Below, piece after piece: positions 7,705-14,009 of a DNA stretch of 27,042 nt. Within the stretch, counting starts at the first letter, position 1. Every line of letters begins with the position of its first letter. The notes beneath the pieces are model-generated. The model saw only the letters and a program-made list of their open reading frames with translations, was not told where the DNA came from and ran no database searches. The DNA comes from a virus: positions 1-27,042 of IMG/VR virus record IMGVR_UViG_3300023184_003201. One strand, written 5' to 3'. A program made the translations under genes and the position numbers.

Positions 7705-8496
7705 ATGAGCCTAGCATTTGATTTAATTTCTGACTTGCACCTTGAAACCTGGTCCACTGAATTTGATTGGACCTATCAAGCCACCAGCCCAGTGTGCGTT
7801 GTTGCTGGTGATGTCTGCCGAGATCAAGACATGTTGGTACGCACCTTAAAGCACCTGGGTAAATGTTATCAGGCTGTGTTCTATGTTGATGGCAACGACG
7901 AACATTACACGCAACTGGAGGATTTAGGTCATAGTTACAGCGTACTTGCTCGACGTTTGCGCCGTATTCCCAATGTGGTTTATTTGCAAGATAATGTTGT
8001 AATAGTAGACGGTGTTGCTATTTTGGGCACCAACGGTTGGTGGGGATTTGATTTTGATCTTGGTATTGATCCTGAACAAGCCGCACAATGGGCACAGGAA
8101 AGATATCATATCAGTGAAACGGCTACCAAAGGCATTGCCAGAATGAGCAATACTGATGCCACATACATGATATCTAGTGTGGCTAAATTACAAAATCATA
8201 AAGATGTTAAAAAGATTGTTATGGTTACTCATACTGTACCCGATCCTGCACTAGTAGCACATGATATGGATCTAGATGGTACCATGCGATTTAATACCAT
8301 GGGCAACAGACTCATGATGCAGGCCCTGACAGTTGACACTGAAAACAAACTGCATACCTGGTGTTTTGGTCACTATCACGGTAACGTAGATCAAACACGT
8401 TCGGGTATACGTTTTGTCAACAACTGTCGTGGCAGGGGAGATACCCCTTATGCTAAACCGGTATACTATCCACAACGAATTGTTGTGGATTTTTAA
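7705..8496 (+). CDS. Calcineurin-like metallophosphoesterase
   Basis: The 263-residue protein has the full set of metal ligands of the calcineurin-like family: Asp10 and His12 (SDLHLE), Asp36 (GDV), Asn64 with Glu66-His67 (GNDEH), His176 (VTHT) and His223/His225 (GHYHG). It should be a cytoplasmic di-metal phosphohydrolase; substrates in the family range from nucleotides to phosphoproteins and nucleic acids. It is a plus-strand gene in a minus-strand region. There is no Shine-Dalgarno before the ATG. Its last codons encode an intrinsic terminator, and it overlaps the convergent clpS gene by 4 bp. Confidence 0.88.
   Translation: MSLAFDLISDLHLETWSTEFDWTYQATSPVCVVAGDVCRDQDMLVRTLKHLGKCYQAVFYVDGNDEHYTQLEDLGHSYSVLARRLRRIPNVVYLQDNVVIVDGVAILGTNGWWGFDFDLGIDPEQAAQWAQERYHISETATKGIARMSNTDATYMISSVAKLQNHKDVKKIVMVTHTVPDPALVAHDMDLDGTMRFNTMGNRLMMQALTVDTENKLHTWCFGHYHGNVDQTRSGIRFVNNCRGRGDTPYAKPVYYPQRIVVDF
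8468..8494 (+). terminator. Intrinsic terminator inside the phosphoesterase 3' end
   Basis: A 9-bp perfect stem (ATCCACAAC/GTTGTGGAT, 5-nt loop) is followed by five T on the plus strand. It is built into the last codons and also overlaps the 3' end of the convergent clpS gene. No U-tract follows the stem on the minus strand, so it should act on plus-strand transcription only. Confidence 0.8.
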
Positions 8497-8804
8497 ACTG
8501 CGCCTTCGGGCTCGACTCTAATCTGCAATGGATAGTTTTGTGCTCGTGCCTGCATGGTTACCTCAATACCTTTTTGTTCGGCAATTTCATAAGGTAACAC
8601 CGCTACACAAGCCGATCCAGCGTCGTGAATATCGCTTGTGATTGTGTGTGCAGTATCTGCGGTATAGTCAAAATACTGCATTAATGTTTCAACCACAAAC
8701 TCGTATGTTGTTTGATTATCATTAAGATATACAACACGGTACATGGGTGGTTCTTTAAAGTCTTCAGCCGGTTTAATTCGTGTTCTTGTATCGCTTTGCG
8801 CCAT
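8493..8804 (-). CDS. clpS: ClpS adaptor protein
   Basis: ClpS binds proteins with N-degrons and hands them to ClpAP. The 103-residue product has the ClpS core from YRVVYLNDN to the C-terminus after a short flexible N-terminal tail, which is needed for delivery in the family. Of the E. coli N-degron pocket residues (Asp35, Asp36, Met40, His66 by alignment), the phage keeps Asp29 and His60 but has Asn30 and Tyr34 in the other two places. The ClpA-contact Glu and Lys (IAEQK, Glu76 and Lys78) appear kept. No clpA or clpP is seen in the window, so it would work with host ClpAP. It has its own promoter and a 5' stem-loop. Confidence 0.92.
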   Translation of the reverse strand: MAQSDTRTRIKPAEDFKEPPMYRVVYLNDNQTTYEFVVETLMQYFDYTADTAHTITSDIHDAGSACVAVLPYEIAEQKGIEVTMQARAQNYPLQIRVEPEGAV

Positions 8805-8856: not shown

Positions 8857-8885
8857 ATTATATTACAGAGTATATGTGATAGCAA
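8857..8885 (-). promoter_or_regulatory. Probable sigma70 promoter of clpS
   Basis: Minus strand TTGCTA (8885-8880), 17-bp spacer, TATAAT (8862-8857), a 10/12 match to consensus. It overlaps the last codons of hsp20, and the -10 box follows the hsp20 stop directly. Confidence 0.65.
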
Positions 8886-9315
8886 TAGTCTTTGGCTTGG
8901 CGTCTTCTGGCACTTCACGTCGCAAGTGAACGCTTAAGATACCAAGTTCAAGGTGAGCATTGCTAATTTCCACATGATCAGCCAACTGAAATTCTCTGCG
9001 GAAACTTCTTTCACTGATGCCTTTGTGCAAATAGTTTGGCACAGTCTTTTCGCTATCAGACTGATACTCTTTACCTTCAATGATCAAGAAGTTTTTGTCC
9101 TTGGTCACTGAAAGGTTATCAAGCCCAAAGCCAGCCACAGCAAGGCTAATCGTGTACTCATCTTCATTGATTTGTACTATGTTATAGGGTGGATAGTTTG
9201 AAGTGGATTGCTGAGTACTCACACGCATGAGATCATCAAACATGTTATCGAAACCGATACCAAATTTGTGAAGTGCGGGAATATCGAAAGAACGAAGGGT
9301 GAGAGTTTTTGTCAT
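8863..9315 (-). CDS. Small heat shock protein, Hsp20/IbpA family
   Basis: The 150-residue protein has an alpha-crystallin domain (about residues 42-138: YNIVQINEDEYTISLAVAGF, then the family's LSVHL strand) and a C-terminal IAI, the I-x-I anchor used in oligomer assembly. Small heat shock proteins hold unfolding proteins for refolding by DnaK/ClpB. Hsp20 genes are known from cyanophages and other aquatic phages. The gene has its own promoter inside the end of the bS21 gene and a structured leader of about 60 nt that can occlude its Shine-Dalgarno (see the thermometer entry). The Shine-Dalgarno AAGGAG is 7 bases before the ATG. Confidence 0.92.
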   Translation of the reverse strand: MTKTLTLRSFDIPALHKFGIGFDNMFDDLMRVSTQQSTSNYPPYNIVQINEDEYTISLAVAGFGLDNLSVTKDKNFLIIEGKEYQSDSEKTVPNYLHKGISERSFRREFQLADHVEISNAHLELGILSVHLRREVPEDAKPKTIAITYTL

Positions 9316-9321
9316 TTGTTT

Positions 9322-9375
9322 TCTCCTTTATAAGCAAGATGACTTGTAATGTAGCCCGACCATCGGCACTACATT
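9322..9375 (-). promoter_or_regulatory. Candidate ROSE-like RNA thermometer in the hsp20 leader
   Basis: The leader has two hairpins. The first (9375-9348) pairs AATGTAG with CTACATT and, inside, CCGA with TCGG. The second pairs UCUUGCU (9339-9333) with the Shine-Dalgarno stretch AGGAGA (9327-9322) across a UAUAA loop. Its pairs are U-A, C-G, U-A, U.G, a G.G mismatch, a bulged C and U-A, the geometry of the U(U/C)GCU/AGGA element of ROSE thermometers. Confidence 0.6.
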
Positions 9376-9382
9376 GTTATTT

Positions 9383-9411
9383 ATTATACAGAAAAAAATT
9401 GGCTTAGTAAA
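9383..9411 (-). promoter_or_regulatory. Probable sigma70 promoter of hsp20
   Basis: Minus strand TTTACT (9411-9406), 17-bp spacer, TATAAT (9388-9383). The -35 box overlaps the stop codon of the bS21 gene. Predicted start of transcription is near 9376, giving a leader of about 60 nt. No heat-shock sigma32 consensus is seen. Confidence 0.6.
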
Positions 9412-9628
9412 GTTTCTTTGGCAAAGCCTGTTCGTTGAGTTTCTTTTTCCAACGATTCTTTGCGGCGCCGGCTTTGAGTTTACGAGCAGTAGTGGGTTTG
9501 GTGTAAAATTCACGATTACGAACATCGTTCAAAATTCCCGATTCCATGATCTTCTTTTTGAACTTGCGTAGAGCCTTGTCTACATTACCGTCCTGAACCA
9601 GCACCGATCTACCCCTAAGTTTTTGCAT
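9404..9628 (-). CDS. rpsU: Ribosomal protein bS21
   Basis: The 74-residue, very basic protein matches bS21 in size and in its central signature REFYTKPTTARK and ends in LY like bacterial bS21. bS21 sits on the small-subunit platform near the anti-Shine-Dalgarno end of 16S rRNA and helps initiation on natural mRNAs. Phage copies are known from large aquatic phages and are thought to enter host ribosomes. It overlaps the 3' end of clpX by 14 bp, so both are probably translated from the same mRNA. Confidence 0.95.
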   Translation of the reverse strand: MQKLRGRSVLVQDGNVDKALRKFKKKIMESGILNDVRNREFYTKPTTARKLKAGAAKNRWKKKLNEQALPKKLY

Positions 9629-13319: not shown

Positions 13320-14009
13320 TTATTTCCTATCACCAAACAATTGCAACAAGTTCAAAAACAAGTTGATAAAGTCCATGTACAAGGTCAACGCACCACGCAC
13401 TTCTGCGGCGTCGCTGGTTTCATACATGAGTTCTTCGCGGATCTGTTGTGTGTCATAGGCAGTAAGGCCCAAGAAGATAATGATAGCCAAGGCGGAGATC
13501 ACCATCTGCATCACGGTGCTGCCAATAAAGATGTTCACAATACTGGCAATACAGATGGCGATCAAACCTACAAACATGAACCGGCCAACACTGTCTAGGC
13601 TACGCTTGGTAAAGTAGCCATAGCCACTCATTACACCAAACAGGATGGCCGCACCCATAAATGCACTAACAATCGATCCCATGGCAAACACAGCAAAGAT
13701 CATTGAAAAACTCAAGCCCATCAGGGCCGCGAAACCATGCAAACACAACTGTGCTACAGGTTTACTTGGATTGTTACCCAGTACCATGCTCACACCAAAT
13801 ATTGCCGCTAGCGGTGCAAAGATTACAATCCATTTTGTTATGCCAGTAAAAAAGAACTGTAGTAACTCAGGTGTGGTGCCCACCCAGTAACTGATCAGCA
13901 TACTCACAATCACTGCTAAACTCATATGTCCGTAAACACGGCCCATGGCCGAGTTGATTTGTTCGGCTGAACGGTATTGTTCATCGTTAAAAATAAGTGT
14001 ATCATTCAT
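13320..14009 (-). CDS. Bax inhibitor-1 family (YccA-like) membrane protein
   Basis: The 229-residue protein has about seven hydrophobic segments after a short charged N-terminus (SAEQINSAMGRVYGHMSLAV, the family's opening). It contains the helix pattern with SGYGYFTKRSLDSVGRF in the middle and the conserved AYDTQQIREE near the C-terminus. Bacterial relatives include YccA, which in E. coli binds and restrains the membrane protease FtsH; other members are calcium-leak proteins. In a phage, delaying FtsH-driven turnover or lysis is plausible but inferred. Shine-Dalgarno AAGGAG lies a few bases before the ATG. Confidence 0.88.
   Translation of the reverse strand: MNDTLIFNDEQYRSAEQINSAMGRVYGHMSLAVIVSMLISYWVGTTPELLQFFFTGITKWIVIFAPLAAIFGVSMVLGNNPSKPVAQLCLHGFAALMGLSFSMIFAVFAMGSIVSAFMGAAILFGVMSGYGYFTKRSLDSVGRFMFVGLIAICIASIVNIFIGSTVMQMVISALAIIIFLGLTAYDTQQIREELMYETSDAAEVRGALTLYMDFINLFLNLLQLFGDRK

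Follow-up and report, generated by a model that had tools for sequence, protein, structure and literature searches.

The window analysed here belongs to a lake phage and is the whole of IMG/VR phage record IMGVR_UViG_3300023184_003201, 27042 bases long. One of its strands carries clpX, the gene for ribosomal protein bS21, hsp20 and clpS, a group that is a proteostasis cassette, and the interval under study runs from the stop codon of the bS21 gene (9404) to the start of hsp20 (9315), where the minus strand reads TGTATAATAAATAACAATGTAGTGCCGATGGTCGGGCTACATTACAAGTCATCTTGCTTATAAAGGAGAAAACAAATG. Elsewhere in the window, positions 13320-14009 encode a phage membrane protein of the Bax inhibitor-1 family (PF01027, E 2e-53). 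The features of the leader and its neighbours are collected in Table 1.

Table 1. Features of the hsp20 leader and its flanking genes, in window coordinates
Feature	Coordinates	Strand	Basis
clpS adaptor gene, downstream of hsp20	8493..8804	-	PF02617
hsp20, 150 aa small heat shock protein, downstream of leader	8863..9315	-	PF00011 8e-15, phrog_432 4e-40
Complete element according to covariance model	9321..9372	-	R1 69.6 bits; R2 51.1 bits, E 5e-15
Shine-Dalgarno (SD) partner of anti-SD, AAGGAG	9323..9328	-	sequence and covariance-model alignment
ROSE anti-SD core U(U/C)GCU, reading CUUGCUU	9332..9338	-	sequence and conservation
Lower clamp GUCAU, complementary to AUGAC at the start codon, specific to the window clade	9339..9343	-	folding and clade leaders
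Hairpin I: outer stem AAUGUAG/CUACAUU, U.G pair, bulged G9367, inner stem CCGA/UCGG, loop UGG	9348..9375	-	folding and covariation
T4-type late-promoter-like box AATAAATA	9378..9385	-	TATAAATA match in homologous stretches; overlaps TATAAT at 9383-9388
Ribosomal protein bS21 gene, upstream, ends before promoter (stop at 9404)	9404..9628	-	PF01165

The leader can be drawn as two hairpins. Hairpin I, at the 5' end, is present in all predicted structures from 5 to 50 °C. In hairpin II, the strand UCUUGCU (9339-9333) lies opposite AGGAGA (9327-9322), and the core CUUGCUU pairs with AAGGAG through C9338-G9323, U9337-A9324, U9336.G9325, U9333-A9327 and U9332-A9328, with G9335 opposed to G9326 and C9334 bulged. 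The 5' hairpin and this pairing, mismatch and bulge included, had been described in a first-pass annotation of the DNA and were confirmed on the minus strand. The leader folds better than its dinucleotide shuffles, with a z of -2.66 (3 of 200 shuffles were as good). The minimum-energy structure from RNAfold places hairpin II in a different register (GUCAU:AUGAC, UUG:CAA, CUU:GAG), so that energy alone would not have chosen the ROSE register; the latter is based on conservation and not on computed energy.

The first-pass annotation had taken TATAAT (9383-9388) as the promoter. For the window, a T4-type late box is a likelier promoter than a sigma-70 TATAAT: the T4 late-promoter box, TATAAATA, occurs with at most one mismatch in 129 of 209 distinct homologous upstream stretches, no more than 25 nt ahead of hairpin I, compared with 23 after shuffling, and most or nearly all of the matches lie 2-5 nt before the hairpin. 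With the box AATAAATA at 9385-9378, transcription would start at the foot of hairpin I, which is near the start that had been assumed with TATAAT.

Conservation and covariation of the leader

Nearly all of 80 close relatives in IMG/VR retain both hairpins with differing stem sequences, and among the matches listed for the pattern GCTT...AGGAGAAAACAAATGAC, 79 of 80 precede hsp20, genes for very divergent proteins included. Named isolates that bear the element are Pelagibacter phages HTVC008M and HTVC115P, Methylophilales phage Melnitz-3, Sinorhizobium phage Phosso and the Synechococcus and Prochlorococcus phages S-PRM1, S-CRM01, S-CAM9, P-RSM6, S-PM2, Syn9, S-RIM12, S-WAM1 and S-SSM4; Pseudomonas phage 30-2 has it with slight changes. 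Hsp20 homologs were searched with single-protein queries, a profile of 15 divergent Hsp20s being too variable. Across four phage query groups, U(U/C)GCU stands before AGGA in 48/50, 45/47, 59/59 and 26/36 distinct leaders, and the arrangement is kept where the phage Hsp20 is only 32-40% identical to that of the window. Nearly all leaders keep the mismatched G and the bulged C, where a perfect anti-SD would be CUCCU.

The motif is also specific to its genes. Among phage genes with AGGAG before ATG, it precedes AGGAG at 245 of 254 distinct hsp20 sites and at about 1 of 236 other genes. The set of other genes had contained 241 members, six with the motif, five of which the sorting rule had missed and which were reassigned by their translations: three hsp20 (L168, L403, L406) and two groES (L134, L186), the groES of L134 being separately confirmed. 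A check set beforehand, that related phages should keep UUGCU facing AGGA, was decisively passed, both in the four groups and across the hsp20 sites. The earlier remark that a thermometer on a phage chaperone would be unusual does not hold, as the arrangement is near the rule among hsp20-bearing phages.

Several loci depart from the common form. The ROSE-like motif was not found in the hsp20 leader of cyanophage S-TIM5 (L210), and the phage hsp20 genes at L430, L440 and L442 are likewise without the ROSE-like core; the S-TIM5 leader contains CCACGC...AAGGUGG, possibly a different SD hairpin. A variant anti-SD, UUACU, stands before dnaK at L592, L598, L602, L613, L617, L622, L626 and L646, with A rather than G opposite G and the mismatch retained. 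At L051:1390-1508, hsp20 lies right after an apparent dnaK end and has lost its own hairpins, as if the upstream element were enough. Phage-like hsp20 leaders also occur in two bacterial assemblies, Rhodobacteraceae Water_Bin34 (G050; L445/L446) and Nonlabens (G054; L513), and these sequences are probably phage contigs inside the assemblies.

Hairpin I was surveyed in 81 leaders less than 84% identical, 73 of which could be anchored on the motif. The bulged-G hairpin was present in 68 of these 73 diverse leaders, compared with 7.8 expected from shuffles, and its outer stem shows all pair types; the core of the hairpin is stable and is capped by UUCG or GAAA loops. RNAalifold returned no structure on a first MAFFT alignment because the loops were misaligned, and a covariance model seeded on one loop class was used instead. 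When 58 distinct sequences were aligned with the covariance model, 98.0% of cells were paired (76.7% when shuffled), the covariation score of hairpin I was 0.547 (0.182 when shuffled, with 0 of 500 shuffles reaching it), and double changes were seen at 8 of the 9 hairpin I pairs. This alignment was fitted to the model; the seed alignment A4 gave the same result, with slid-partner controls near 0.1.

Because the ribosome fixes the SD side of hairpin II, double changes are not expected in its core; changes on the free strand are mostly exchanges of U and C facing G. Below the anti-SD core, the first pair that is free to vary, the second one counted from the core, is formed in 38 of 73 leaders, compared with 26.3 for shuffled partners (0 of 2000 as high). 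C at the variable pyrimidine goes with loss of this lower pair and U with its presence (Fisher p 4e-4, a test inflated by relatedness), as if stability were held constant. In the window clade, 47 of 48 leaders keep at least 5 pairs to the start codon, where 3.5 would be expected by shuffling; this is partly due to common descent. Of the compensatory changes that had been proposed as a check on the hairpins, hairpin I gives clear examples, and some can be seen at the nearest free pair beneath the anti-SD core.

The anatomy of the leader, its conservation and covariation, and its gene specificity are matters of direct observation, and they bear on the alternative that the likeness to ROSE arose by chance or merely reflects the common ribosome-binding site of this phage group, AAAGGAGAAAACAAATG. 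The only relevant Rfam match of the window leader, freshwater-2 (RF02980), is compatible with that alternative, as it rests mainly on AAAGGAGAAAACAAATG, that is on the SD and spacer; at 21.6 bits, against a gathering score of 49.9, it was rejected. However, the motif is absent from other AGGAG genes, covariation and gene specificity exclude chance, and the comparative data already refute this explanation, to which we attach practically no weight.

Other phage genes carrying the element

Two covariance models, R1 and R2, were used to locate further copies. The R1 score of the window is not independent, since the window sequence is in the seed; with R2, the next best match in the window reaches only 8.0 bits, compared with 51.1 bits for the leader. 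R1 gave two matches outside hsp20, both before phage dnaK. R2 found a match in every one of 45 whole phage records, and its top match was the hsp20 leader in 15 of 15 named isolates, several of them outside the training set; the match in HTVC008M was weak (E 0.02). Strong R2 matches are few in these records, and those that were read sit on chaperone genes and one small gene, the additional ones standing before a 76-92-residue protein or, at a distance, before groES.

A scan of 80 phage dnaK loci (L576-L655) placed the element immediately upstream of dnaK in 70, immediately downstream in 59 and at both places in 55, the copies lying at ~740-797 and ~2690-2800; the downstream copy usually precedes hsp20, and two dnaK leaders were in the training set. 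The gene for the 76-92-residue protein has the element in 54 of 63 loci (L657-L719; also L556-L574), none of which were in the training set. A phasin identity, suggested by eye, was rejected for weak Pfam support (best 0.0026, 6 of 26 members), and from a low-confidence fold prediction the protein is probably all-helical, with no clear Pfam family. For groES, the element lies directly upstream in L134 (847-1146; the same record as L656) and in L186 (about 4747), and groEL stands beside groES in L134 and G015. In G015 (L568), the element precedes a 14-codon ORF and groES is behind a separate sigma-70-like promoter; a scan for phage GroES gave one locus only.

The element so marks a phage chaperone regulon comprising hsp20, dnaK, groES (in few loci) and the 76-92-residue protein. 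On balance, we lean towards regarding it as an RNA-only heat-shock or folding-stress regulon, in which copies of one short ROSE-type element, joined to late promoters on these four genes, would let temperature or folding load gate the chaperones produced in infection without sigma-32.

This distribution also speaks to the possibility that hairpin I merely stabilises late mRNAs at their 5' end or marks where they are processed, with the anti-SD lowering translation constitutively and no signal being sensed. The hairpin does lie where the mRNA is predicted to begin, next to a late-type promoter, its core and its UUCG or GAAA loops are those of a stable structure, and computed energies reveal no special occlusion of the SD. 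However, other genes are without the element, strong matches in the 45 records are few and those that were read are on chaperone genes and one small gene, and constitutive weakening needs no near-invariant G.G mismatch and bulge; we consider such a role very improbable.

Proposed thermosensing and competing signals

The data presented above have led us to propose, as the likely reading, that the leader acts in cis to switch translation, as short ROSE elements do. The late-type promoter would start transcription at the foot of hairpin I and yield a leader of ~60 nt, whose hairpin I would form a stable 5' structure that remains closed. In hairpin II, CU(U/C)GCU would pair weakly with AGGAG, through U.G and U-A pairs interrupted by the G.G mismatch and bulged C, and conceal the ribosome-binding site, with GUCAU additionally pairing to the start codon in the window clade. 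Heat would open hairpin II, allowing the ribosome to bind and Hsp20 to be made; since dnaK, groES and one unknown small gene bear copies of the element too, the chaperones would increase together. Melting in the physiological range, the translational effect and the start site are inferred, and thermosensing is argued by analogy, from homology of design and the kind of genes controlled, in the absence of any temperature measurement. The presence of the element on a small protein not known as a chaperone counts against a thermometer.

Folding across temperatures, another check proposed at the outset, gave a divided answer. Hairpin I stayed closed and the predicted probability that the SD is open in the window rose from 0.015 at 20 °C to 0.083 at 42 °C, but control genes rise too. 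Nearest-neighbour SD accessibility did not differ from that of other AGGAG genes (p 0.32) or of shuffled leaders (p 0.08). Nearest-neighbour energies handle the ROSE G.G mismatch and bulge poorly, and with the leaders no different from controls such thermodynamics was dropped as proof of thermosensing.

The signal might instead be the folding load of virion production. E. coli IbpA binds its own thermometer leader and represses its own translation via Arg93 (PMC10474464), and on this precedent the leader could be a protein-binding operator through which phage or host Hsp20 holds down translation of its own gene and of dnaK, groES and the small gene, a block lifted once Hsp20 is titrated by unfolded proteins, temperature not being the signal. 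The equivalent Arg is kept in the window protein (KGISERSF) and in 222 of 243 distinct element-bearing phage Hsp20s, and a leader common to several unrelated genes is what a common trans factor predicts. However, the Arg is equally retained without the element (8 of 9) and was discarded as uninformative on self-regulation, 18 element-bearing phages have a Lys that is non-functional in E. coli IbpA, and the conserved ROSE mismatch is not explained by self-repression alone. We therefore hold this account to be unlikely; self-repression may nevertheless act jointly with melting.

As regards the thermometer reading, the occurrence of similar leaders on chaperone genes in hundreds of diverse phages suggests that phages turn on their own chaperones by RNA melting, although melting is unmeasured. 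If true, this would constitute a large RNA thermometer class in genomes other than those of cells, present in T4-like phages that infect Synechococcus, Prochlorococcus, SAR11 and Methylophilales as well as in jumbo phages and numerous phages from lakes, and would provide a concrete route from water temperature to phage protein folding and virion yield. ROSE-type control would extend to dnaK and groES, the unknown small phage protein would probably be part of the same response, and the natural sequence sets would reveal how ROSE stability is tuned.

Relation to known RNA thermometers

The search with the Rfam ROSE models, advised by the first-pass annotation, gave matches below the cut-off in relatives and none at the window leader itself. 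With ROSE_3 (RF02523), the best match of the whole genome fell exactly on the hsp20 leader in Melnitz-3 (34.1 bits, E 1.6e-6), C48C1, P-RSM6, S-PRM1 and Syn9 (E 1.6e-6 to 0.03 over the five), and in a second set 7 of 8 Rfam matches at E<1 were ROSE_3 on such leaders, including members of the window clade and one dnaK leader. The phage leaders match the full length of the model (1-69) at about 18-34 bits, all below the gathering score of 43, and the window leader was matched by none of ROSE_3, ROSE (RF00435) and ROSE_2 (RF01832). With no match above the Rfam cut-off, the element is called ROSE-like and not a member of an Rfam family.

The anatomical features of the ROSE-like class are nonetheless present: (i) U(U/C)GCU facing the AGGA of the SD, with a G.G mismatch and a bulged C; (ii) a place in the 5' UTR of a small heat shock gene, here predicted, as the start is unmapped; and (iii) two to four stem-loops, with the SD in the last and a stable hairpin before it. 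The functional feature of the class, an SD hairpin that opens on heating so that translation rises, is inferred only. Structure and kinship both lend the ROSE-like interpretation good support, and more was found than the single leader first noted, namely a phage-wide leader family on chaperone genes. Two other thermometer types were considered and rejected. A FourU thermometer requires four consecutive U pairing with AGGA, and the anti-SD here is CUUGCU; the cyanobacterial hsp17 thermometer is a single hairpin with a 1x3 bulge between the start-codon and ribosome-binding-site stems, whereas the window leader has two hairpins and a ROSE core and resembles it only in the start-codon clamp.

Phage ROSE-like leaders are apparently previously unreported: no report of ROSE elements in phages was found in the open-access literature (subscription papers were not covered), and two papers on cyanophage small heat shock proteins do not mention a thermometer. 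ROSE-like elements outside small heat shock genes have been described on bacterial ABC transporter genes (PMC11342760, PMC12857270); these are bacterial and not on chaperone genes, and phages are not mentioned in PMC11342760. The lambda cIII leader is a phage mRNA thermometer, but it works in the opposite direction and through two alternative folds (PMC4166951).

The closest characterized counterparts are the short two-hairpin ROSE elements of Pseudomonas ibpA, proven thermometers with a 4-6-fold response from 25 to 42 °C in which only hairpin II melts (Krajewski et al. 2013, PMC3669281). Like these, the phage leader is ~60 nt long and has two hairpins, of which hairpin I is stable and hairpin II sets U(U/C)GCU against the SD, flanked by G-C pairs; a small heat shock gene lies downstream. 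Unlike them, the phage element is phage-encoded, lies behind a late-type promoter and not a sigma-32 promoter, has a bulged-G hairpin I and, in the window clade, a start-codon clamp, and is also found on dnaK, groES and the small unknown gene. Bacterial small heat shock leaders, mostly from alpha- and gammaproteobacteria, carry the motif in 62 of 76 cases and hairpin I in 54 of 68, and many hsp20 leaders of SAR11, other alphaproteobacteria and Saccharospirillum share both the bulged-G hairpin I and U(U/C)GCU-AGGA with the phages. In six SAR11-type genomes, the phage model gave one strong match in five, on hsp20 and on no other gene, whereas the phages extend the element to other genes.
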